Of a stretch of DNA of 25,024 bases, positions 3,001-20,396 are shown piece after piece. The first letter of the stretch is position 1. The number at the start of each line of letters is the position of its first letter. The notes beneath the pieces were generated by a model. It did not search any database and was not told where the DNA came from. It was given only the letters and a program-made list of their open reading frames with translations. Source of the DNA: a virus. Position numbers and translations under genes: made by a program. Where the stretch lies: positions 1 through 25,024 of IMG/VR virus record IMGVR_UViG_3300048113_000246; one strand, 5' to 3'.

Positions 3001-6000
3001 GTTAGAAGAACTTGCAACAGATGCAGCAGTTACTTCTTCTGCAACAATCTCATCATTAGTCTTAGATAGACCGTTAATATTATAGAAAGATCTCTCAGTT
3101 CCATTCCATGTTACTAGGAATGAGTTATACAGACTGCTGAATGCAGAAGAGATATCAGACTTAGCAAGGAAAGGAACAAACAGGTTAGTATTGTTATCTG
3201 TTACGAGAGGAACCGTGTTTCTATCATACCAGGAGTCAACGTTAGGATTAACGGATAGATCACCAACATACTGTAGAACAACAAATGGGTTGGGATTGAT
3301 AGTCTTGGTGGCAAAATTGTTACCAAGTAATCTCTGGTTTGAGAATGGTAGAGAAAGAACACCATTATTGTTGACATAACCAGCAACTCTTCTCTGGTCT
3401 TCTCTAGTGTTGACTTCCTTAACAAGAAGACTTTCTTCGCTAACCTGTGGTCTTAGAACAGACTGTTGAGAGTCCATAGCACAAGCATAGTCATCTGACT
3501 TGACATCTCCCTTATGTGTTTCAAAGTTATCAACATAGAAACCAGTCTTAAATCTGTCTAGACCGATCTCATCCTTAACTTGCATATTCAATGCTTGCTG
3601 CTCAAGGATGCTCAATGATGTGTAATACTCAAGACGTTCGACACGTTGATTGAGTTTACCGATATCCTTCATCGTATAACGCTTGTTCTCAACAGGAACA
3701 ATTCTTACATCTCTAAAACTATCAGTGTATGCAGGAACATACAGATAGAACAAAGGCATAGAATCACTAAGAGTTTCAGGTTTAGATGGGTTCAAGGAAG
3801 AGTTGCCTTTCTTGACAATAAAACTACCTTGAGTATTGAGGAATACACCATCAATTCTATCAAGATACTGATCCTTGTTATACTTAACAGTCCAAGGTAG
3901 GTTCAGATCATCGGATGGTGTGCTGGATGGAATACCAGAAGTTGCAGTGAATGATAGATACTCATTCTGTGCTAGGAAGGATCCGTCCTGATACCCTGGA
4001 AGGATGTTTGTGTTGTCAACCTTAGGTCGGAAGTCAATGACATCCTTCAAGGAGACTAGACCACTGACTGAGGAATTAAATGATGGAATCTCAGTTTCAG
4101 TAACACCTGCTTCATGCAGATAAGAGTCAATCGTGCAGAAGTCACCTTGTGAATGCTCGAAGTAATCGAAAGAAATGATCAACTGTCCTGTAGGAGCAGA
4201 TACTCCTGGTTTTAGAACTAGTCTTGCAGTATCATAGAAGGTATCTCTTTGACCATTGTCGAAGGTATACCTATCAGTTACATCTGTTCCAGATACTAGG
4301 TTACCACCTGCATCAACAGTAGGAGGTGCAGAGACAGAACCTTCATATACATACCTCAATTTGTATACGTCAGAATAGGAGACGATCTGGATAGTCTCGC
4401 CGCCATTCTCCTGTCCTCTAAATGGAACGACATTTGTTCCACCAGATTGAACAATAATTTGCTTGTTCTCAACAGAAGTCTTAAGTCTTGGTTTTGCTTT
4501 AGATACTTGCAGTGTAGCAGTCAACTTCAATGTTGGGAAGTTGATAGAAGGAACAGCAAACGTAGGATCTCCTACTTCTGGATTAGCAACTCTATTTTCT
4601 AGTGCTGCTCTAATTTGGTCAATGTTACCAAAATAGTTTTCTGGGAAGTTAATAGTAACACTACCAGCAGTCAGGTTGCTATCGGACTGATCGATAGTTA
4701 CAAATGAAGGATCGACATATACAACATCACCTTTCTTCAGTGCTCCTGTGAATGGAAGCAGAACAGGAGGATCATTAACAGGATCCGCTCCTAGTTCAGA
4801 ATTGTGAATTGCAACACCAGGATCTAGAACTGTAATCAAGAAGTTCTCTTGAGTAAAATCAGCAAATCTCTGTGTTCCGAATGGAAGTTGTGCAGCAAAT
4901 GATATGTTACCACTACCAGAAGATGCAGTAGTAATAAAATCTCTTCTGAAGTAGTAAGTGATCTTGGAATCTTCAGATGAATCAATCAGTGACTTGATCT
5001 GCTTATCTCCTGTTGGGAATACTAGAGTTCCAACTGGATTCTCGATAAGAGGTCTCTGGTTTACAACCGATGCATTAACAACATCTGCTAGCAGTGCGCG
5101 ATCCAAGTAAATTCTTGATCTCTTGACACCATCAGGTCTGGTTGCATACTGGACAACATACTTGAATACGTCGCCATTGACATCGGAGAATAGAACAGTA
5201 TCACCTTGAATAAGATTTCTCGATGCATCACCGTTAAAACCATTACACTCAATATACTTGTATCCTCTGGTTCCAGAGAATGTAAAATCAGTAATGGCAG
5301 TAGTTGTAGTATAACCAGTTCTCTCTAGTTCGATATCAGCAGAGAATTTGTTCTTGCTACCAGAACCAAAAGCAGAATATAGAGACTTGACGTTCTTAGG
5401 TGAGTAAGTATATACTGTATTCCTAAACAGAACAGGAACAATATTTGCTCCGTTCAGTGGAAGTGGACTAACACCACCAACTTCTACTACAGGTGGTTGT
5501 GAGAAGATTTGAGTAACTGCTGTTCTATCTTTGACATATACTCTAGAGATAGCACCAGACCCTTGTATTACCATCTCAATGGCACTTCTAGGATACTCTA
5601 CGCCATCTAGGGAGATGACAGGGTTTCCTACGTTGTAGGAGTCACCACGCTTGACACAGATGAAGTGAGAAACGGTATTCTCTACAGCAATCTTAAGTGT
5701 TCCACCATCTTCTCCTAGGATAGTCTCTCCAGGTGAAAATACACCAGTCACCATAGTGACGAATAATTTATTGATAGATGAGTAGGTTGCAGACGTGCCG
5801 CCTTCAATAACAGCAACTGCTCCACTAACAGCACCATAGATATACTTGCCAGGAATGAACTCAGTTCCTGTAATAGTCTCTTCTAGAAGAATGCGAGTGA
5901 AGAACTCAGGAGCAAAGAACGAGAAGTCAAAGATGGAGTTATACTTTTCAACACCACCAGTCAGTTTTCCTTTAGATACAATCTTATCAGTATCTTTATT

Positions 6001-7936: not shown

Positions 7937-9820
7937 TCAGAACTCAATTACCAACTTAATGTCTTCAATTTGGTCAGCAGCACGGGTGATCAGTCTTCTG
8001 TTCTCGACATAGATGATGTCACCAGAGTTCTGCTCGATCTCTGGGAAACCGAAACCATTGGTGAAACTGATACCAAGAAGCGTGGTTGCAGTAACGCCAG
8101 TGTTAACAGCACCAGAAGCGAGTGATGCAGCACCAACAATGTTAGCACTATCATCGAATGCTCTTACAACACCTTGATCAGCATGAAGATCAGGTGACTG
8201 GATATACTTAAGAACGCCATCCGTAGTTGAACCAGCATCAAGCGTCCAGGAAACAACGGTGCCTTTAGCAGTTCCACCGCCAGCAAGTGCTTGGGTGATT
8301 GTTTCGTCAGAAACGTAATCTGCGCTTGCTCCAGTAATCTTAGCAGCATAGAGACCGTTCAAGGTATCCAGGACTGCAAAGTCAGTAGTGGTCCAGTTGA
8401 ATGGGTCCTTGATGATGCCGATACGACGGAAGTCGTTATCAACAGGGAAGTCTCCAGAACCTTCAGCATAGGTCAGACGAATGTTGGTCATGACACGCTT
8501 AGCGTTCAGTTCCAGTTCAAAGTCAGCACCGTGACCACCTTGAGGAGGAAGAACAACTTCCAGAGCACCTGTTCCACCAACACCAGTTCTAGCGGTGGTT
8601 AGTGCTTGCTCTGCATACAGACCATACTTGATACCACCAACAGTTGCGCCGTCATCCAGTGCAATACTAGCGTAGGTATAACCTGCACCGTTAACAACCA
8701 CTTCTGTAGATTCAATCGCACCAGCGGTAACGACAATCTTCACAACAGATTCGGTTCCAGATACTTGACCATCGCCAAGGACAGGTGCATAGTGGGTTCC
8801 GTTAGGAAGACCCGATCCAAGATCCTCAACTAGAACAACGTCGATAGCACCATCAACAGCAGCTGCTTCTGTAGCAGCACGAGTTGCTTCGCCAGCCAAG
8901 TTGATTGGCATGAAGTTGGTAGACAAGAAGCGCAGAACGTCATCGGTAGGGATAGTATACATATACTTCCAAATGTATCCCGAACCAGCAGTGTTAGCAA
9001 CTACTGCATCAGCACTCTCGGTGAAGAGACCGCTTCCTGCATCATAGGTTCCTTGACCTGCAGAAGGAGTAGTCTTTGGTTCGTATACAGGGTTAGGATC
9101 TACCTGACCTGGGAACTGACCATTGTAGATACACTTGAAGACTTCGTAGTTCGAGTTAATTACATAGAACTTAGAAGCACCAAGACTAGAAGCACCAGTA
9201 GTGGCTTGCTTGCCTACTTGACCAGTGGTCGTTGCGGAGTAGTCAGGCTTATACATATCGAAACGAGGCTCGGTAGCGAGCAGGTTCCAATCGTAACGAG
9301 TGATAACAGCACGAGCGAACTGATCGGTGATACGCTTAGCAGCGATAATTTCGTCATAGACGCTGAACTTCTCGATCTGGTTGTCCAGAGGAGTAGGAGG
9401 GGTGTCTTCTGTTGCGTAACGGTATACACCAGCGCGTGCCTCAGCGCCAGTATCTGCTGCTCCGTTCCAACCCTCAAGAACTGCATTAGGCAGTGGGGTT
9501 GCGTTTACGGAAGGAGTGACATCACTTAGGATCAGTGAATTGTCATATACCTGTTCGATTGAAGCTTTGAAAGGGGAGTTTGCAAAAGTGTAGCTTCCGT
9601 TAGTATCGGATGCAACATAAACGAATTGGTTTTCTGCGAAAGCGACAGCGTTCTGTGAATAGATTTCAAGAAATGCATCCCAGCGTTGGGGGCGACCAAC
9701 AAAGAAATACATTCTTGTCTTTTCAGGACTATCTTCTGCTCCACCAGCGGGCTCACTAAGAGACTCCAAAAACTGTTTAGCATTAAAGATTCTAAACTTA
9801 TCTGAGATGATTGCAGCCAT
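7937..9820 (-). CDS. gp8: Baseplate wedge protein gp8-like, enlarged
   Basis: This is a structural subunit of the T4-type baseplate wedge. The 627-residue protein has the landmarks of T4 gp8 in order: an N-terminal IISDKFRI segment, TRYDWN near residue 175 (T4 has RRDWG), FYVINSNYEVFKCIYNG near 214, GSGYIWKYMYTIPTDD near 285-300 (T4 GYVWEYLFEIPPD), RRIGIIKDPFNW near 462, and SGDIIYVENRRLITRAADQ then IEDIKLVIEF at the C-terminus (T4 SGEMIYMENRPPIIMAMDQ). T4 gp8 is 334 residues. The extra length lies mainly before TRYDWN, between about 300 and 460 (including a GAGYTYASI beta motif near 376), and between 480 and 600. A perfect late-promoter octamer lies 35 bases upstream. The Shine-Dalgarno site is weak. 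Confidence 0.9.
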   Translation of the reverse strand: MAAIISDKFRIFNAKQFLESLSEPAGGAEDSPEKTRMYFFVGRPQRWDAFLEIYSQNAVAFAENQFVYVASDTNGSYTFANSPFKASIEQVYDNSLILSDVTPSVNATPLPNAVLEGWNGAADTGAEARAGVYRYATEDTPPTPLDNQIEKFSVYDEIIAAKRITDQFARAVITRYDWNLLATEPRFDMYKPDYSATTTGQVGKQATTGASSLGASKFYVINSNYEVFKCIYNGQFPGQVDPNPVYEPKTTPSAGQGTYDAGSGLFTESADAVVANTAGSGYIWKYMYTIPTDDVLRFLSTNFMPINLAGEATRAATEAAAVDGAIDVVLVEDLGSGLPNGTHYAPVLGDGQVSGTESVVKIVVTAGAIESTEVVVNGAGYTYASIALDDGATVGGIKYGLYAEQALTTARTGVGGTGALEVVLPPQGGHGADFELELNAKRVMTNIRLTYAEGSGDFPVDNDFRRIGIIKDPFNWTTTDFAVLDTLNGLYAAKITGASADYVSDETITQALAGGGTAKGTVVSWTLDAGSTTDGVLKYIQSPDLHADQGVVRAFDDSANIVGAASLASGAVNTGVTATTLLGISFTNGFGFPEIEQNSGDIIYVENRRLITRAADQIEDIKLVIEF

Positions 9821-9879: not shown

Positions 9880-10410
9880 TCACTCAGGACCAGAAAATTG
9901 GATCATTTCATCGTTATTATTTAGAGTAGTCGGACCAGTTTTTACGTATCCCGTAAATGTAGTCGCAGTTTTCTCCGTATATTCAATCAATTGTCTCGCG
10001 GCAGTGAAGATATGACCACTGGTCTCGAAACTTGATGTTGCAATTACATTAATGATGGTAGGATTCTCCGCATCCACTGATATAGTTTGGTTTCCATCTG
10101 CCATGGTGACTCCCATAATCATACTTGAAGGACCAGCATTGAACTTATCACCTGATAGAGTGAAGGTAGACTGTGGTCTCAATTCAAAATCTCTAATAGC
10201 AAGTTGCGGAAACGCTCTTTGAATATCTTCAATAACATGATCACCTTCAAATTTAATAAACTCAAAATCTCGTAGTGTGTATGTAACAGCACCACTAGTA
10301 AATGATGAAAATCCATCAGGGATTCTCTTTCCGAAATTAGTGACATCGATGGTGTTGCCATCTCTTTTTAAGACAGTTCTAAATCCTGCTGCTAATTGTA
10401 ATTCTGGCAT
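9880..10410 (-). CDS. Putative baseplate or virion structural protein, 176 aa
   Basis: The 176-residue protein begins MPELQLAAGFRTVLKRDGNT and contains RDFEFIKFEGDHVIEDIQRAFP near residues 47-68. The rest looks mostly beta, with IINVIATSSFETSGH and a GYVKTGPTTLNNNDE segment near the end. I do not recognise a named family. It has no signal peptide or membrane segment. It starts inside the stop of the giant gene (shared TAATG), which implies coupled translation, and ends just before the gp8 promoter. Its place between the gp7-position giant and gp8 suggests a small accessory wedge component. That role is inferred from context only. Confidence 0.75.
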   Translation of the reverse strand: MPELQLAAGFRTVLKRDGNTIDVTNFGKRIPDGFSSFTSGAVTYTLRDFEFIKFEGDHVIEDIQRAFPQLAIRDFELRPQSTFTLSGDKFNAGPSSMIMGVTMADGNQTISVDAENPTIINVIATSSFETSGHIFTAARQLIEYTEKTATTFTGYVKTGPTTLNNNDEMIQFSGPE

Positions 10411-13400
10411 TAGTTTCTAGTTTTAATTGATGTTTCTAGAACGACAAGTTCAGTATAGTAGTCAAGGACACCCATCTCTCTTTGTAGCATAACATCAGCA
10501 GGTTTTTCACGTCCTTCATGCTGTGGGAGATGTGCTCTCACAGTATATGTAGATGTTATAGATGGTCCAGCAGTAATTGCAATAGATTCAATCGTCGTGA
10601 GAGTAGCGACGATAGCAAGATCCAGTTGCTGTTGAATCTGCTTAGGTCCATCTTCAGACGAACCACCAAGAATACCACCATCAGCACCTCTTGGGAAGTC
10701 AACCAGAGCAGGAATGCTTTCTGGAGTTACAATTACTCTGGAGATTGTATTAGTCAACAGAGCATTCATAGATGCTTTAGCAGGTTGTGCCGCAGCGTAG
10801 AGTTCTGTGGTGATGTTTCCAGATACACTAGAGATTGCAGATACTGTTCTGAATCCTTCAAACTTAGTAATCTCAGTCTGAGTCTGAAGACCCAGTTCGA
10901 TATTGATCTGAACGTCAATCTCCGAGATCGTAGTCGTAGAGGCAATAGTAACAACGTCACTACTGATGGATTCTACACTAGCATTAATTTGCGTAATCTT
11001 ACTAACACTTCCAGCAATTTGCTCTGCACTTACGACAGTTGTTGGAGGAATGATTGTAATCTGCTTAGTAATGTCATAATCAAAGTATAGGTCAAGATCA
11101 AGATTTCTGGTAGACTGGATGAAACGATCATCCAACATTCTAACTTCAGTATCATGTGTTACTGTGTTAGTAACAACGATGACGGTCTCTGGAGAGATAG
11201 CGACGGTTTCTTGAGCAGGAGTAGCAATACTCCTGATTCCGACTTCGATAACTGGAGTGACGACAGGTGTAATAATCTGGAACTCGTTCTCAATCTCGAT
11301 GTAGCGAGCATCAGACTGTTTGATCTCCTGCTCACTGATAACTTGTGACTTAAGTTCAACCAACTGAGCGGAAGACATTCTGACTTCAGACTCAGTAATA
11401 AGGATAGTTGCAGGTCCAACAGGCAGGACAGTAACAAATTCAGGTAGAGTTCTAAGATACTGACCAGCATTATGTGCTTGTGCCGTAGATCCTTCAATAC
11501 CTCTAGTGAGATCAAGGAATCTGTCTCCAAGAGTAGAATTGTAAGCAACAATCTCTTTTCCGATCTGCAATTTGCCTTGCGATGGGAACAGACTTGTATT
11601 TCCAATATATGCAGTTGTTCCTGTTGGAGATAGAGGAGCATCGAGGAATGCACCTGTTACACTGTAGGTATCCTGAGCAGCATAAACAATAGGAGCATTG
11701 ATTTGCTTATGTAATGTCGATGTAATTACATCCACACCCATTTCAGGAGAGATATCTGTAATAACAGCAGTTGGTGAATCAAGAGTTACCGTAATAGTAA
11801 GTTCATTGATATTAAGTTCGGATGCAACCTGATCGAATGCGCCAGATGCTTCTCTCTTGGTATACTGATAGTATTCTGCTTTTCTAAGTTCTGTTCCTGC
11901 TTCGCGAGCAGTAGTATGGAGTTCTGTGATAAAGACAGAATCTGCCTTTACTTGGTCGCCAGCAAGACCACCAAGTGCAATAATAGAAAGAACACTAGAA
12001 ACAGCACCTTCGCCAGTCAACAGAATTTCTGTTTGAACAACAGATAAGGCACCACCACCTGCAACTTCCGTATTTACACTAATAATAGTTTCAGACTTAA
12101 CTACTCTAGTAGGATTCCTCTTAACAAAATATCCTCTAGTGACAACTACTTTGGGTGGTTGAGTATAACCAAAACCACCATTTGTTAATACAACATCTAG
12201 AACCTGTCCATCTTTCGTAAGAACTTCTGCTCTAGCACCACCACCATTACTATCAACAGGAACAAACTTGAGTTGTGGTGGAACAAAGTATTGATATGCT
12301 GTTGGTTGTAATAGAATACCAGTATTGAAGAATAGAGCAAGATCCCTCTTGTTCCACTCAAGATCATTAAATCCAAGAGAAACAACACGACCAGTTCCAT
12401 CAATTTGACTGGTTACGCTAAGACCCTCTCCTCTAACAATACCATTGTAATTACTTACATCGACTTTAGAGAAGTGCTCATACTTAGCAGTCTGACCCAA
12501 TCCAAAGTTTCTTAGATTTGCTTTACCAGGAACATACTCAATTGTTCTAAATTCATTCTCACCATCAACTAGGATTTCATCTCCAGCAATGATTTCCAAT
12601 TCAGTATTGTTTCTTATATCATATACTGAGTTTCCATTCTCAGAACCTCTCAACCATTCAGGAATATCTCTAGCAAGCAAACGCTTACCTTCATCATCTA
12701 CTGGATATGAAATATCAATCGAGAAAACACTGTTGATATTATTAAAAGAAATTGGATTCGAGAAATCTGCTTTATCGGAAACATAAATTGCAGAAACTCT
12801 AGTGTCATCAGCAGTATTTTGTGTTGGATCATATGACAACTCAGAAAAATCAATGTTCGATGCATTCAAAAGTGTGAATGTAAAATCAACTGGTGTTACA
12901 CCAATTTTTGAAGATCCATTTGCAGTTCCATCTTCAAGTTCATCAAATCTTATTAGAGAAATCTTTCCTAAGAGTTTTCTAGTTCCATCTGAAGTGATGG
13001 TAAACAAATTCTTAGGAGTAGTTGGATTGAAACTATACAATCTACTCTGGAATTCATTATATTCTTGATTTCCAGCAGATGTATCGATAACTCGCTGACA
13101 TCTAATAATAATCTCATTAGTAAGACCAACACGATCATAATCATAGAATGATAGAGTCTTGGGGACATCTCTACCATACAGAGAAATCAACCTTACATTG
13201 TTCTGAACTGATTGACCAGTTTCAGGAATGTAACGAGTAAGATTTGATGTGAATGTGATATTTGGACCATTGATTGTATAAGAGTCTGGATTTTGCAGAA
13301 CTCCATCAACAAACACCAAGACAAATCTGCCATCGGTGATGTTCTTGACTCTACCATCAACTTCACCAAAGATTAGATAAGGACCTGTTCCTCTATATGG

Positions 13401-16400
13401 AATCAAACGATTATCAATTTTGAATCTATCGTAACTACCGACTCCATAACCAAAGAAAGTCTCTCTTTGATCTAGTTGAACTGGAACAGGATCAATATCG
13501 TCTGCAAAGTTTCTAGGTGGTTCTGCAAATACAATCGCATCTGCTTGTGATCCATTTCTTCTTAAAATATAATATGCATTACCCAATGGTGCTTCTGCAG
13601 ACTCTTTTGCTTCTTGCAAAATGCCATTGATAAAGATCAATAATTTCTCACCAGGATCTGCCTTTACAGCAGTGCCATCTTCCCAATATAGATCAAACTG
13701 ATTCGCAATTCCATCAAAATTAGGAGAGATGTCCCTAAGTTTTCTTAGATAACGAGAGTTGAAAGTATCGTCTTTGAACTTAAATGCTTTACAGATTAGT
13801 GATGCAGATTCAGTCTCGTAAGTATCATCTAAGTTCTCTCCTGTTTGTGGGAAGAGAGGACCGAGAGGAGGTTCATTAAATGTTATCTGTGAACCAGATA
13901 CTTTAAATGATTTGCCAGGTTCCTGTGCAATTCCATTTATAGTAAGGAATAATTCTTGCTCATTGTATGGAGAGTATGCAAGATAGTTTGCTTTATCTAC
14001 AAGAGTAAATGTTTTTCTACCGAGAATGTTGCCATTACCAATGACACCTTCAACTACATCATATGCAGGAGATTTAACTTCGGTAATTTCAAGAGTAATA
14101 TAAGATGCTGCATTTTCGTAGAGAGTGATCTCATCACCAACCTCAAACTCATATGCAATATTAGAAAAGTCTGATTCAGTAGATTGAACCAATCCACCAA
14201 ACTCATAGTCATCACTGGAAGGACTATTAGTAAATTCACCAAATGAGAATAGGTAACCAATATCCATACGAATGATCTTGGTCAGATCAAAGATACCTGA
14301 CCCAGTAGTTACATACTCATCATTAGGAAGAATAGTGTAATTATCACTAGTATCCCAAGATTGGGTAGAAGAACCAGCACCAACAAAAGGACCAACAGCA
14401 GGTTGGTTGTTGCTGTTGCTTACAAGTTTAAATTTAATCCAGTGAGCATAAGCACCAGCTGGAACAGTTACCCCACCACTAAGAGAAGTGTAAACTAACG
14501 TGTTATCAGCTGCTTTAGTGATTGATCTGATAGAACCTACATAATCTTCCTTACTTGCATAACGACCAGTGAAAGGTTCTTGGATAGTTAGTTCTCTAGA
14601 AATAATTCCTTCAGTATCATACTCATCAATAGAGATAGAACCTTGACCTCTAATCAAGTTTGTATCTGCTACTGTTACAAAGGAATTAGTAACCCTTGTG
14701 CTCTTCCTCTCTACAGTTACTGTCTTAGGAGAAAGTTCAATATAACTGATAGATGTAGTAGGAGTCTGATCAGTCGGCATTGTTGCTTCCTGTTCAGAAT
14801 CAATCAGAACTTCACCGAACAGTTGGAAACCTGCAGGGTGTGTAGTCTGCTTGATTAGATCTCTCCATACATCAATAGCAGTTCTAGACTGAATGACATA
14901 TGAGAAGTCTTGATAGTAGTAAGAATCAGTTACCTTTTGATATCTACTACCAACCTTACCTTTATCAGATGCATATCTACCAAGATTGTCAAAATAGGTT
15001 CTGATATCAGAATCAAACTCAGTAAACAGAACATCAGATACTTCAATAGATCTACTAGGATCCATTGCAGAATAAAGATTTAGGGTGGTGTCTACAACGC
15101 CACTTACTTTATTAAGTCTAAGAATATTTGATCCTGTTCTCCAACCTTTGTCAGAAACATAACCACTGAAGATTAGTGAAGAACCAACACGCTGCTCTAC
15201 TCGCTCTCCCTTGTAGAACTTAGCATCTCCTTTGTAGATGATAGCGTAGTTTGATCTATAAGTAGACTCAATAGTCGCATCATTGTGGAAAGAACCGCCA
15301 TTACTGATAATGCTAATATCTTGTGGTAGACCGATGCTCTCAGATTCAAAGAATGCATCGATATCACCTTCATATACCGATACAATAGGAGCAAAGGTGA
15401 AACCACTGCCACCTGCTAAGACATCAATTCTAGTAATTCTTCCTTGATCGCTTACTACACTAAAGTGAGCACCAACGCCATCTCCATTGGTAACAACTGC
15501 TTTAGGATTGATGTAGTTCTTACCACCATTATCAATTTGAACACCTTTAATTGACTGAGTGATAGAATCCCACTCTACAGTCAGTAGTGGTTCGTTGTTA
15601 TCTGTTACAAGACAACCCTCAACAATAGGAGATCTCTTATATCCTTCTCCAAGATTATTAATTGTGGTCTTAGTGATCTTACCTTCAGCAAAAGGTGAAG
15701 ATGTTGTGTATATGATGTTGCCAGTTCCTTGATAATCAGGAACGTCAGGCAGCTGATATGCAAACTTTGTAGATGTTGTGAACTTAACTGTCTTAGGTCC
15801 AGTCAAAGGATCATCAATAACTTTCAATGAAGCACTATCTGTATTGACATCACTAGACGCCTTAATAAAGTAGTAATACGTGTCAAAGTTAACTGGGAAT
15901 CTCTGTTGAGCAAGACCAGAAATATTAGGACCAAAACCTAATGTGATAGCAACAAATGAACCAGCGTTTCCTGGTTGAATACCACTTATCTCTTTCTCTT
16001 CAGTAAAAATAGTTCCCGTTTTACTAGCAGAGAAATCAAGGAACACACCACTCATAGAAACATGACTGGTGTCAAACAAATAACGATAGTATTTCTGAAT
16101 ACGAATGTCAGTGTTTCTACCATACGTTGCAAAATTGACATCCTTAGAAAACTCTAAGTTGTTTTGACCAGCAGTAGATGAAGCAATATTGATAGACTTT
16201 CTAGGAGAACTATCATCCTGGAAAATACTACTGTTAGTAACTTCTCTAGGAGAGGGAGCATCATAGTTGTATGCTAGAGTTACCTCTTGAGTGGTTGCAT
16301 CATAATCAATAATATATGGATCATTGATACCATCGCCAAGAGGTCTTGAGTCTTCTTGGAATCTGTAGATGCCGTTATACAGTCTTACTGTAGTATTATC

Positions 16401-19400
16401 AAAGTGATTGGTGACAACAGTATCAAACTGTCCTCTTTGAACAGTAGCAGTTCTTGCATTATTGTCAATAGATGTGACTTTTACAATCTCGCTATTAATT
16501 TGCAGATAGTCATTCTCAGACAGTTTCTGAATACTTCTTAGTTGTAATACGGTGTTAGTTAAAGAGAAACCAACATGATCAACTTCCAATGCCAACCTTT
16601 GGGTTGAATTGGTAGAATCTAATCTATTGAGAGATGCATCAGCAACTGATAGGATGTCACCCTTAATGTAGTTCTGTCCTTTAGTTGTAACAGTAACTAT
16701 ACTGACACTGCCATATCCAGTATTGTTGTAGTCACTAACAACAATAGTTGCTTTCGCATTATCAGGATCTCCAACAGATCCAATATCAGTTCTTACCTTG
16801 CTTTGATCGAAAAAGATAAGTTCAACATCTTCATATGTTCCTGCTTGATATGCTATACCACCATTAAGAACTTCTGACTTGCCAACACCACTATCAGTCA
16901 TGACTGAAGTGAAAGAAGGTGCTCTCAGTGTAATCTGTTGATAGAATCTCTTTCTTACATAATAAGTTGTTGTAGTATCTGCCACACTAGGAATAAGATC
17001 CATATTTACAGCACTACCAACACCAACATTGTGTGGTTCGGATGTAGATACCAAAGCATAGTTGTTATCCACAACAAATGCTTGGATGTTCTTACTTAGT
17101 TCGTTGTAGATGACAACTTCTAGACCTACAGTATCTCCAAGAACTGTGCTCTGGAGAAAATAGTTCTTAGTAGCACTTTCAGGAACAACAAACTCTCCTT
17201 GAGTCACTTCGACTCTAATAGAGTTTTGGTTTGATACAGACTCAAGGACTCTACCTCTAGCAATGACATCATCATCGCCATCTGTTAAGAGTAGTGTTGC
17301 TTCTGCACTAAACGATCCATTACCAGACAAGATAATACTGATAATGTTGCTAGAAGAGTTTAAATTTTTGTCAGACTGATATGTTCCTGATACATTCTCA
17401 AGAACAAACTCATTTCTATTAGAAATGTCTCCGATAACCCTACCAGTGTAGTTGCTATCTTCTTGAGTAACAGTATCTCCTTCAAACAGATAGCAAGGGG
17501 CAATAGTCTCAATATAAGAGACTGCTAGAGTATTAGTAGGATCTAGATCATTTGATTTGAGTGATGTAACAGTCTTACCAGTAACCTCTGCGACAATCGC
17601 AGCTGCTCCAGATCCTTCGGTTCCAGTGTTATTAACAATGAATCTATTGCCAACTTTGAATGATGCTGGAGAATCCTCTACATTCAATGCAGAAATACTA
17701 CCACTAGTGGTTTTGTTGATCTTCAGAATAGTATTACCACCATTGCTAGGCATTCCTAGAGTTTTTAGTCTCTTGGCATACTTTGGTAAATCATCCTGAG
17801 ATAGATCTGCATTATAGTTAGAATCAACAGGTAGTGAGTAATAATTTGATCCTAGGATATATGGGAATGCAGGATCGCCATTAATATCGATAGTAATAAA
17901 GTATGCATAGACTCCTGCTGGATATTCTGGTGTTGCACAGAATCTTCCATTGTTTTCGTCTAATTCTAATTTACCAGTCTGAGTGCTAGGTCTCCACTCA
18001 TAATCTTCAATAAAAGTTCCAAGTGGGAACTCAGATGGATTTGGACCGCCAAGTCTGTTGCCCTTCAGATAATATGCTGATGACAGTCTGCTGACAGCAC
18101 TACTAGTGTCTAGAGGGTTCTCATAACCATAAGGACCATAAATTGGATTGCCATCATAAGCAAATCCTAAAATAGGAGAGTGTGAAGTTCCATCATCATT
18201 CAGATCAGTTCTAAGATCAGAAGGATTGGCAACAATACCATAACCATACCCTTTAGTAGGATTGTAGTTCTGGAATGCATAACCATTAGATGAGTCTAAC
18301 TCAGACTGCAGTTTCTTATAGCGATCTTTGGTATATGTAACGATATCAGATGTTGCTGCTGCTCCATCACCAACAGGTAGAATATCGACTATCACATTTC
18401 CTTTGGAGTAGAACTTACCTTCGTCTACTTGCTCAAAGTCAACAATTTTGCCATTTGCTAAAACAGTATTGTATTCTGCAAAACGACCTTTGCCAAGACG
18501 ATCGATAATTCTTACTGTAGGTGGTGTAGTGTAGTATTCACCAGCATCAATTACTTGAATACTTGTAATTCTACCAAAAGTAACAGTAGCAGATGCTTTT
18601 CCGTTTCTACCAGAAGTAATAGTTACAGTTGGTGGAACAGTATATACAGTCTGATCAAGAAGTTCAATACTGTCAACAACTTCACCTGCTAGGAAAGATC
18701 TTGCTCTTCCTGGAATATTGTTAATCAGAACATTAGGGGGATCCTGGAATCCAGCACCTTTTTGTGAAATATTGAACTTGGTGATAGGACCAAATTTGAC
18801 TTGATCAAAATCTCTATAACTGAAAGCAAGAGTTCCATCAACTAAGATGCCAACATCTCTTTGTGTTGTTTTATACGATTCAGTAATAACTTGAGGATTC
18901 TTACGAATCAACCTCATCGTCTTCTGATCTTGCAACTTCTGCTGAGTATTTGCAAGAAGAATAGGTCTAGTTGGGAAAGAAGACGAACAGATGTAGTAAT
19001 AGTTGCTATCTTCATAAACAGCAGCAACATCACCAGGCAGATCTCCAATCTGAGACTGAATAGTAGGATTTGCTGCTTCAGCATTCTCTTGACTCAGAAT
19101 CCAACGAATGGTATTCTGTGGAGTCATAATAATGGGATCTCTGGTCTCGAAACCTGCACCAGATACCTGAATGCGATCTCCTTCCTCAGAATAAGGAACA
19201 GGAGCATCAGTGCTCAAGTTATAAAGGACACCAAGGACTAGAAGCTTGACGTTTCCAGAGGTAACTGTAGAAAAACTGTAAACAGATTCTCCAGCAGCAT
19301 AAACAATATTGCTTTCTCTGTCGCTAACTAGAAACTGAGTGACACTTTTATCATTATACTCAAATTCTTCCCCACGGATTATAAATCTGCCTGTAGAAGA

Positions 19401-20396
19401 AAATCCTTCTGTGGAAAACACATTGATACGATCTCCAACAGTAAGACCATTATCAAAGTCTTCTGTTAACTCGGTTTTAGATGCAATCTTGAATGTATTG
19501 TTAATCGAAGACGTATCTAAAGCAATTTCATATAGTTGCTCTCCATCAACTGTGCCAGCACCGAAAACATTGTCTACAATACCAGATGCAAAACCTGCAT
19601 TGGGATTAAATGAGTCTATGCCTTGAACAATCTCTTCTCCAATGAGATCAGATACATTACCCGCTAAAACTTTTACTTTTAATGAGTAAGAGGTGATCCA
19701 ATCGGATGTGGATGCTTTTACAGTAAAATCTTTTGGTCTTACAACCTCTGGAGTGTCATTTCCTACCAGAGTGTTGAAAATAAACTTGATTGACCTATCA
19801 GTGCCTTTTGCACGATAGAAACTAGTAATATTCTTAATTAGAGTTCGCTTGTCTACCTTCTCATTCAGATACTTTTCTGGGAAGGATGCAAGGTAGTCAG
19901 ACTCAAAGTTCTTGACAATAGCATACAAGAACAGGTTGCTGATGTTCTGGACTGCCACACCTGAGTTGTGACCCACAGCAAGCGTTGTTACGAAGTTGCT
20001 TGCCTCGTATAGGTCACCTAGTTTTGTATTGCCACTGACTCCACGAGAGACATCACTGAGAGTGTTACCATTTCTCTCTTTGTAAAACAAGATCTCATCG
20101 TTAATCTTGATGTAACCATTTTCCACAGGGAAAGAAGATGCATCAATCAATTCAATAGTAGTATCACTCGCAGATACTGCTACTGCTAATTCTGTGCCTT
20201 GTGCTAGAAGACTTTTCTCATAAAAATCGATATCACGATATTTCGTGATATTCTGAATCACGTCGAGAGGTTGACCCCTAAGTTCTAACTGCTCGTAATA
20301 TTTCTCTACAACTTTAGAAAAATTTTCGTAGTCAGAAGAAATGAACTCAGGTAGTTGACTCTCGATTAGAGTGGATATTCTCCTAGTCTCTGCCAT
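10410..20396 (-). CDS. Giant baseplate structural protein in the gp7 position (VrlC-like cyanophage protein)
   Basis: One intact 3328-codon frame runs from an ATG six bases after the gp6 stop. Residues 1-260 are helical and wedge-like (LPEFISSDYENFSKVVEKYY, then TLIKNITSFYRAKGTDRSIK near 195), as expected for a protein that packs on gp6. A YHYH-like domain lies near 735-855 (AYDGNPIYGPYGY, NGRFCATPEYPAGVYAYF). GxGY...P beta motifs recur near 544, 580, 615, 1235, 1578, 1618, 1658 and 2735. Four fibre-like NG(I/V)xQxP units lie near 2149, 2249, 2356 and 2686. RG-containing modules occur near 80, 326, 1296 and 2929. The last 330 residues are rich in T, S, I and V. T4 gp7 is 1032 residues, so if equivalent this version is about threefold larger. 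Its wedge role is inferred from gene order; annotators of related phages have used the name VrlC. Confidence 0.85.
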   Translation of the reverse strand: MAETRRISTLIESQLPEFISSDYENFSKVVEKYYEQLELRGQPLDVIQNITKYRDIDFYEKSLLAQGTELAVAVSASDTTIELIDASSFPVENGYIKINDEILFYKERNGNTLSDVSRGVSGNTKLGDLYEASNFVTTLAVGHNSGVAVQNISNLFLYAIVKNFESDYLASFPEKYLNEKVDKRTLIKNITSFYRAKGTDRSIKFIFNTLVGNDTPEVVRPKDFTVKASTSDWITSYSLKVKVLAGNVSDLIGEEIVQGIDSFNPNAGFASGIVDNVFGAGTVDGEQLYEIALDTSSINNTFKIASKTELTEDFDNGLTVGDRINVFSTEGFSSTGRFIIRGEEFEYNDKSVTQFLVSDRESNIVYAAGESVYSFSTVTSGNVKLLVLGVLYNLSTDAPVPYSEEGDRIQVSGAGFETRDPIIMTPQNTIRWILSQENAEAANPTIQSQIGDLPGDVAAVYEDSNYYYICSSSFPTRPILLANTQQKLQDQKTMRLIRKNPQVITESYKTTQRDVGILVDGTLAFSYRDFDQVKFGPITKFNISQKGAGFQDPPNVLINNIPGRARSFLAGEVVDSIELLDQTVYTVPPTVTITSGRNGKASATVTFGRITSIQVIDAGEYYTTPPTVRIIDRLGKGRFAEYNTVLANGKIVDFEQVDEGKFYSKGNVIVDILPVGDGAAATSDIVTYTKDRYKKLQSELDSSNGYAFQNYNPTKGYGYGIVANPSDLRTDLNDDGTSHSPILGFAYDGNPIYGPYGYENPLDTSSAVSRLSSAYYLKGNRLGGPNPSEFPLGTFIEDYEWRPSTQTGKLELDENNGRFCATPEYPAGVYAYFITIDINGDPAFPYILGSNYYSLPVDSNYNADLSQDDLPKYAKRLKTLGMPSNGGNTILKINKTTSGSISALNVEDSPASFKVGNRFIVNNTGTEGSGAAAIVAEVTGKTVTSLKSNDLDPTNTLAVSYIETIAPCYLFEGDTVTQEDSNYTGRVIGDISNRNEFVLENVSGTYQSDKNLNSSSNIISIILSGNGSFSAEATLLLTDGDDDVIARGRVLESVSNQNSIRVEVTQGEFVVPESATKNYFLQSTVLGDTVGLEVVIYNELSKNIQAFVVDNNYALVSTSEPHNVGVGSAVNMDLIPSVADTTTTYYVRKRFYQQITLRAPSFTSVMTDSGVGKSEVLNGGIAYQAGTYEDVELIFFDQSKVRTDIGSVGDPDNAKATIVVSDYNNTGYGSVSIVTVTTKGQNYIKGDILSVADASLNRLDSTNSTQRLALEVDHVGFSLTNTVLQLRSIQKLSENDYLQINSEIVKVTSIDNNARTATVQRGQFDTVVTNHFDNTTVRLYNGIYRFQEDSRPLGDGINDPYIIDYDATTQEVTLAYNYDAPSPREVTNSSIFQDDSSPRKSINIASSTAGQNNLEFSKDVNFATYGRNTDIRIQKYYRYLFDTSHVSMSGVFLDFSASKTGTIFTEEKEISGIQPGNAGSFVAITLGFGPNISGLAQQRFPVNFDTYYYFIKASSDVNTDSASLKVIDDPLTGPKTVKFTTSTKFAYQLPDVPDYQGTGNIIYTTSSPFAEGKITKTTINNLGEGYKRSPIVEGCLVTDNNEPLLTVEWDSITQSIKGVQIDNGGKNYINPKAVVTNGDGVGAHFSVVSDQGRITRIDVLAGGSGFTFAPIVSVYEGDIDAFFESESIGLPQDISIISNGGSFHNDATIESTYRSNYAIIYKGDAKFYKGERVEQRVGSSLIFSGYVSDKGWRTGSNILRLNKVSGVVDTTLNLYSAMDPSRSIEVSDVLFTEFDSDIRTYFDNLGRYASDKGKVGSRYQKVTDSYYYQDFSYVIQSRTAIDVWRDLIKQTTHPAGFQLFGEVLIDSEQEATMPTDQTPTTSISYIELSPKTVTVERKSTRVTNSFVTVADTNLIRGQGSISIDEYDTEGIISRELTIQEPFTGRYASKEDYVGSIRSITKAADNTLVYTSLSGGVTVPAGAYAHWIKFKLVSNSNNQPAVGPFVGAGSSTQSWDTSDNYTILPNDEYVTTGSGIFDLTKIIRMDIGYLFSFGEFTNSPSSDDYEFGGLVQSTESDFSNIAYEFEVGDEITLYENAASYITLEITEVKSPAYDVVEGVIGNGNILGRKTFTLVDKANYLAYSPYNEQELFLTINGIAQEPGKSFKVSGSQITFNEPPLGPLFPQTGENLDDTYETESASLICKAFKFKDDTFNSRYLRKLRDISPNFDGIANQFDLYWEDGTAVKADPGEKLLIFINGILQEAKESAEAPLGNAYYILRRNGSQADAIVFAEPPRNFADDIDPVPVQLDQRETFFGYGVGSYDRFKIDNRLIPYRGTGPYLIFGEVDGRVKNITDGRFVLVFVDGVLQNPDSYTINGPNITFTSNLTRYIPETGQSVQNNVRLISLYGRDVPKTLSFYDYDRVGLTNEIIIRCQRVIDTSAGNQEYNEFQSRLYSFNPTTPKNLFTITSDGTRKLLGKISLIRFDELEDGTANGSSKIGVTPVDFTFTLLNASNIDFSELSYDPTQNTADDTRVSAIYVSDKADFSNPISFNNINSVFSIDISYPVDDEGKRLLARDIPEWLRGSENGNSVYDIRNNTELEIIAGDEILVDGENEFRTIEYVPGKANLRNFGLGQTAKYEHFSKVDVSNYNGIVRGEGLSVTSQIDGTGRVVSLGFNDLEWNKRDLALFFNTGILLQPTAYQYFVPPQLKFVPVDSNGGGARAEVLTKDGQVLDVVLTNGGFGYTQPPKVVVTRGYFVKRNPTRVVKSETIISVNTEVAGGGALSVVQTEILLTGEGAVSSVLSIIALGGLAGDQVKADSVFITELHTTAREAGTELRKAEYYQYTKREASGAFDQVASELNINELTITVTLDSPTAVITDISPEMGVDVITSTLHKQINAPIVYAAQDTYSVTGAFLDAPLSPTGTTAYIGNTSLFPSQGKLQIGKEIVAYNSTLGDRFLDLTRGIEGSTAQAHNAGQYLRTLPEFVTVLPVGPATILITESEVRMSSAQLVELKSQVISEQEIKQSDARYIEIENEFQIITPVVTPVIEVGIRSIATPAQETVAISPETVIVVTNTVTHDTEVRMLDDRFIQSTRNLDLDLYFDYDITKQITIIPPTTVVSAEQIAGSVSKITQINASVESISSDVVTIASTTTISEIDVQINIELGLQTQTEITKFEGFRTVSAISSVSGNITTELYAAAQPAKASMNALLTNTISRVIVTPESIPALVDFPRGADGGILGGSSEDGPKQIQQQLDLAIVATLTTIESIAITAGPSITSTYTVRAHLPQHEGREKPADVMLQREMGVLDYYTELVVLETSIKTRN

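Follow-up and report, generated by a model that had tools for sequence, protein, structure and literature searches.

The viral DNA analysed here (the window: 25,024 nucleotides, positions 1 to 25,024 of IMG/VR record IMGVR_UViG_3300048113_000246, a 25-kb genome fragment) encodes a giant baseplate wedge protein in which residues ~463–852 appear to form a single YHYH-type domain (Pfam PF14240), split in two and devoid of its conserved histidines, that probably has no catalytic activity and serves the wedge as a structural or contact module. YHYH domains are widespread in phage baseplates, have no sequence relative of solved structure in the copy of the PDB that was searched, and carry two published guesses as to their function: a tail-associated zinc hydrolase with a site of three histidines and an aspartate, as predicted by Iyer et al. 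2021 (PMC7824862), and a role in carbohydrate binding or host recognition (PMC7029224).

The giant gene (Table 1) aligns along its whole length with the corresponding gene of cyanophage S-RIM44 (Kyanoviridae, Vellamovirus), with 95.9% nucleotide identity, which places the window phage close to S-RIM44; its product matches PHROG 4406 (E=0), a family of virion structural proteins, as well as baseplate wedge PHROGs. Pfam identifies the adjoining genes as gp25, gp6 and a gp8-like gene, in the order gp25-gp6-giant-gp8, which is identical in S-RIM44; the giant thus sits in the slot that gp7 takes in T4-type phages, and its P-HM1 homologue carries the annotation gp7. Like the T4 baseplate wedge protein gp7, it is encoded between gp6 and gp8, but it is far longer, and the Pfam search gave no significant gp7 family match (PF23786 Baseplate_wedge, 20.9 bits, below the cut-off of 27). 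An adjoining 176-residue protein (window 9880–10410, minus strand) resembles the C-terminal 150 residues of the giant family and matches PHROG 4406 positions 3078–3229 (E 1.4e-11), which suggests, at the sequence level, a duplicated or split-off tail. Up to base 9068 of 9987 the giant gene is 95% identical to those of Syn1 and several S-RIM44 isolates, and the DNA similarity ends there, indicating that ~300 residues at the C-terminus of the giant (window ~10410–11328, minus strand) have been exchanged between otherwise near-identical phages.

Table 1. Coordinates in the window of the giant gene and of the parts of its YHYH-type domain, with the evidence for each assignment.
Feature	Window position	Strand	Evidence
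Giant virion structural protein, 3328 aa, T4 gp7 slot	10410..20396	-	ORF, PHROGs and gene order
Putative N-lobe of the YHYH domain, residues 463–530, DSNYYYICSSSFPTRPI ... VGILVDGTLAFSYRDF	18807..19010	-	Profile and profile-profile match
Putative insert of ~160 residues (531–690), two GxGY..PP beta modules	18327..18806	-	No YHYH match; absent from intact proteins
Former metal-site strip (predicted), residues 699–725, ELDSSNGYAFQNYNPTKGYGYGIVANP	18222..18302	-	Profile alignments; 84 relatives
C-lobe, residues 736–852	17841..18191	-	Pfam PF14240 at 713–839; 131 bits over 686–852; invariant columns in relatives
C-lobe landmarks: DGNPIYGP (748–755), LDENNGR (812–818), PAGVYAYF (826–833), FPYILG			

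A preliminary description of the window, made from its letters, had pointed to a likeness with the YHYH family in the strings GFAYDGNPIYGPYGY, LDENNGRFCATPEYPAGVYAYF and FPYILGSNYY, all of which are present (window 17832–18194, minus strand, corresponding to residues 735–855). The likeness proves to be far above chance: PF14240 scores 88 bits on residues 713–839 against a cut-off of 25 (E = 1e-24), and a profile built from 40 full-length YHYH proteins, drawn from bacterial genomes and one phage (the cellular sample coming mainly from two phyla), gives 131 bits over residues 686–852. The proposal of a YHYH-family domain within a giant baseplate wedge protein is thus borne out. The PF14240 landmarks DG.PIYG, LDxxNG and GxYxY are all found in the window domain; with full-length bacterial members (such as entries L134 and L124 of our collection) it further shares the D of eDy, LDexNGR, PY..G, both lobes in the same order and an Asp before the tetrad. 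It differs from them in an insertion of ~160 residues between its lobes and in the absence of the YHYH motif and of all three histidines. Relatives of residues 690–880 occur in 463 phage records, almost all of them cyanophages, and the presence of the domain in the giant is not new, since ‘YHYH domain-containing protein’ is the name under which one homologue has been deposited. A Pfam match to the X25 pullulanase domain at residues 799–845 (15.8 bits, below the cut-off of 27) was taken as a chance overlap with the C-lobe.

The YAYF at residues 830–833, which had been read as an altered YHYH tetrad, is instead an ordinary motif of the C-lobe. Read from the N-terminus, the columns that do not vary among the 40 full-length proteins are Gly, Asp, His, Tyr-His-x-His, DG, D, D, NG, G and Y; the D...H...YHxH site, invariant in all 40, lies in the N-terminal half, and the C-terminal half has a separate motif of its own with the consensus GTYaYf. 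A non-redundant set of 36 cellular proteins, all with an intact site, has exactly YAYF at this second motif in 11 cases and forms such as YCYF, YHYY and YYYV in the remainder; none of the 36 has YHYH at that position. Both motifs stand in one chain in a 592-residue protein of S-SSM6b, which reads CGGHPEQDGEYHYH and, further on, GTYAYF. D-H-YHYH was found in 41 IMG/VR domains, with YAYF or WAYF as the C-lobe motif among the domains listed, and most viral YHYH proteins with an intact site also have YAYF, which is invariant in 84 relatives of the window type. Since YAYF occurs alongside an intact YHYH in the same proteins, it is not a ruined tetrad, and an easy misreading is thereby corrected.

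The loss of histidines that had been deduced from YAYF is nevertheless real, and extends to all three conserved histidines; it was misplaced, the affected positions being Y706 and Y719–V722, outside the cited motif. In the alignment to the cellular profile, D701 is retained, the third conserved His corresponds to Y706, and YHYH corresponds to Y719-G720-I721-V722, ~110 residues upstream of YAYF. A profile-profile alignment places the tetrad in the same strip, and a two-residue shift of register would give YGYG, leaving the outcome unchanged. Neither YHxH nor HxH occurs anywhere in the 3328-residue giant, so that no intact tetrad lies at another position. Of the predicted zinc-hydrolase site, the window domain therefore keeps the Asp and none of the three histidines. 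Of the 84 relatives of the window type, 72 could be read at the Asp, and every one of them retains it; a His is never found at positions 2 or 4 of the tetrad.

The division of the domain by an insert of ~160 residues had escaped the preliminary description and is new here; it is indicated by sequence profiles. The canonical profile (hmm 4–74) matches residues 463–530, weakly in the window protein alone (7 bits), and at the same place in ~60 relatives with domain E-values from 1e-3 to 1e-10, the P-HM1 protein giving 1.6e-10 alone. The intervening stretch does not match YHYH profiles (0.7% and 0.1% probability), and it is absent from intact YHYH proteins, whose two lobes are contiguous. Its modules read GAGFQDPPNV and GEYYTTPPTV, and similar GxGY..PP modules occur further along the giant. 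Every protein in this sample that has the insert lacks the His site, as do some without it. It could be argued that only the C-lobe derives from YHYH and that the N-lobe match reflects convergent beta structure, the domain being truncated rather than split; the faint match in the window protein would fit this, as would the S-CAM7, ACG-2014f and S-SRM01 giants, in which profile searches found no N-lobe signal. Against it, an N-lobe profile built from 41 relatives matches the canonical N-lobe in profile-profile comparison with 96.9% probability (E 1.5e-10; 0.4% for the reversed control), and the lobes have the same order and position in the ~60 relatives as well as in three giants 6797–7189 residues long, so that we regard truncation as unlikely.

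An AlphaFold2 model of residues 455–880 (mean pLDDT 84.7, pTM 0.76) contains an all-beta insert that is among its most confident parts (pLDDT 84–96); the model of an intact viral protein (L189) was moderate only (pLDDT 72.5, pTM 0.78). Searching the PDB by sequence returned chance matches and no relative of the YHYH domain, and searching it by fold gave no significant match to either model. In a library of viral folds, proteins labelled ‘YHYH domain-containing’ and further giants of cyanophages gave the best matches, including S-RIM14 (E 1.4e-12 over 442 columns, TM 0.45, rmsd 11); these matches are consistent with a split domain but too loose to prove the split. The N- and C-lobes presumably pack together.

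Both lobes are under purifying selection. The ratio dN/dS against relatives is ~0.06–0.25 in the N-lobe, the insert and the C-lobe, and, for the two comparisons that allowed its computation, 0–0.06 in the strip of the former site; 80 of 426 positions are invariant across 41 sequences, and the reading frame is open in all relatives. The S-CREM2 homologue (ORF 122, 77594–83407), which carries the domain at 79904–80365, has been detected in virions by mass spectrometry with 91 unique peptides (PMC10665884), in a relative rather than in the window phage itself. Loss of the name-giving motif might suggest a decaying remnant without function, but in the face of these dN/dS values, invariant positions and open frames there is next to no chance of this. 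A hydrolase that is still metal-dependent, with an altered site composed of D701, H739, Y706, Y719 and acids of the C-lobe, would accord with the zinc-hydrolase prediction for the family (PMC7824862) and with the retention of both D701 and H739; but the family histidines are all gone, H739 is the single His left in residues 455–872, and from one relative to another the residues in place of the tetrad change freely (YGIV, YAYY, YGHV, YGVC), which makes such an enzyme very improbable.

The main rival takes up the idea of carbohydrate binding or host recognition (PMC7029224): the C-lobe would be a working site for a ligand (glycan or calcium), the domain a receptor-contact module, and the His site would have had a separate, dispensable function. 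His-less phage proteins and intact ones alike show no variation at the Asp, Asn and Gly residues of the C-lobe (DG.PIYG, LD..NG), and strong C-lobe conservation would equally fit a retained ligand site; the same residues could, however, merely hold the fold, PDB searches yielded neither a relative of solved structure nor a lectin with a matching fold, and receptor-binding domains are usually more variable between strains than the window domain, which is 98% identical to that of S-RIM44. We consider a ligand-binding C-lobe rather doubtful, and favor a non-catalytic module. On this reading the domain comes from the same stock as the bacterial YHYH proteins, and in the ancestor the histidines presumably bound metal; the domain has lost the three histidines of the D...H...YHxH site, and a block of GxGY..PP beta modules splits it just before the former site. 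The C-lobe would preserve its fold together with the surface formed by the conserved DGNPIYGP, LDxNNGR, GxYAYF and FPYxxG, while the insert may contribute a projecting beta arm to the wedge, the domain having a putative structural or contact role in which presumably no catalysis remains.

The preliminary description had also missed that the His-less state extends across the entire family of cyanophage gp7-slot giants; the site is lost in some proteins outside it as well. Among distinct cyanophage giants of the gp7 slot in which the site is readable (n=68; a further 13 distinct rows were unreadable), it is lost in 67, partial in one and intact in none, and the three giants of 6797–7189 residues show the same split and the same loss of histidines. 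Their records each also encode a separate protein of 534–539 residues with an intact site. Giants of ~4850–4950 residues in other IMG/VR records (L270, L273, L275) are likewise virion-type proteins with a YHYH domain, but their domain is uninterrupted with D-H-YHYH intact, and the gp6-like protein in the same records is longer (~1143 residues). In IMG/VR records G501–G504 and G508 the gp6-like matches cover only part of gp6 or its like and fall within longer proteins (1142–1145 residues); in G508 a gp6-like match falls in a 1763-residue frame, the same length as the YHYH-bearing frame of that record. Separate viral proteins of ~280–590 residues (S-SSM6b AGG54298.1, L189 and L240) share a phage-borne YHYH domain and the same C-lobe, including YAYF, with the window protein, but keep D-H-YHYH and are uninterrupted. 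Single-domain viral YHYH proteins of 281–298 residues from IMG/VR (L203, L221, L224, L229, L233, L238, L209–L232) have YRYR or YHYM as their tetrad, indicating repeated loss of the site. A tree of C-lobes implies at least seven changes between intact and broken sites, although with 114 columns many of its forks are poorly resolved, and we relied only on its starred cases (L256 among the intact giants, and L234 beside L192).

The S-SSM6b protein (AGG54298.1; L096 / L269:6883–8655), with its intact YHYH domain, is encoded directly after the giant, and past that domain has a region with LHGSGGNG and GVSNGAA motifs resembling an alpha/beta hydrolase, for which Pfam gave no match at 0.01. Three contigs filed under Lewinella, Sphingobacteriales and Planctomycetaceae MAGs (L119, L120 and L121) encode cyanophage-type giants, 56–59% identical, and are probably cyanophage DNA binned with bacteria. 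The complete S-RIM44 genome contains one YHYH match; the window being a fragment, a separate intact YHYH gene may lie elsewhere in its phage.

These distributions raise the tentative possibility that YHYH, predicted to be a metal-dependent enzyme, was converted by phages on several occasions into a component of the baseplate without catalytic activity, with the separate intact YHYH protein of some phages as a possible active partner in a division of labor. In the cyanophage gp7-slot branch the predicted metal site is gone in its entirety and the C-lobe is still strongly constrained, so the enzyme guess is not transferable by name; provided that the site consists of the three histidines, the published zinc-hydrolase prediction, as judged from sequence, cannot apply to this branch. 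Natural pairs of intact and His-less domains, some of them in one genome, make the enzyme question testable.
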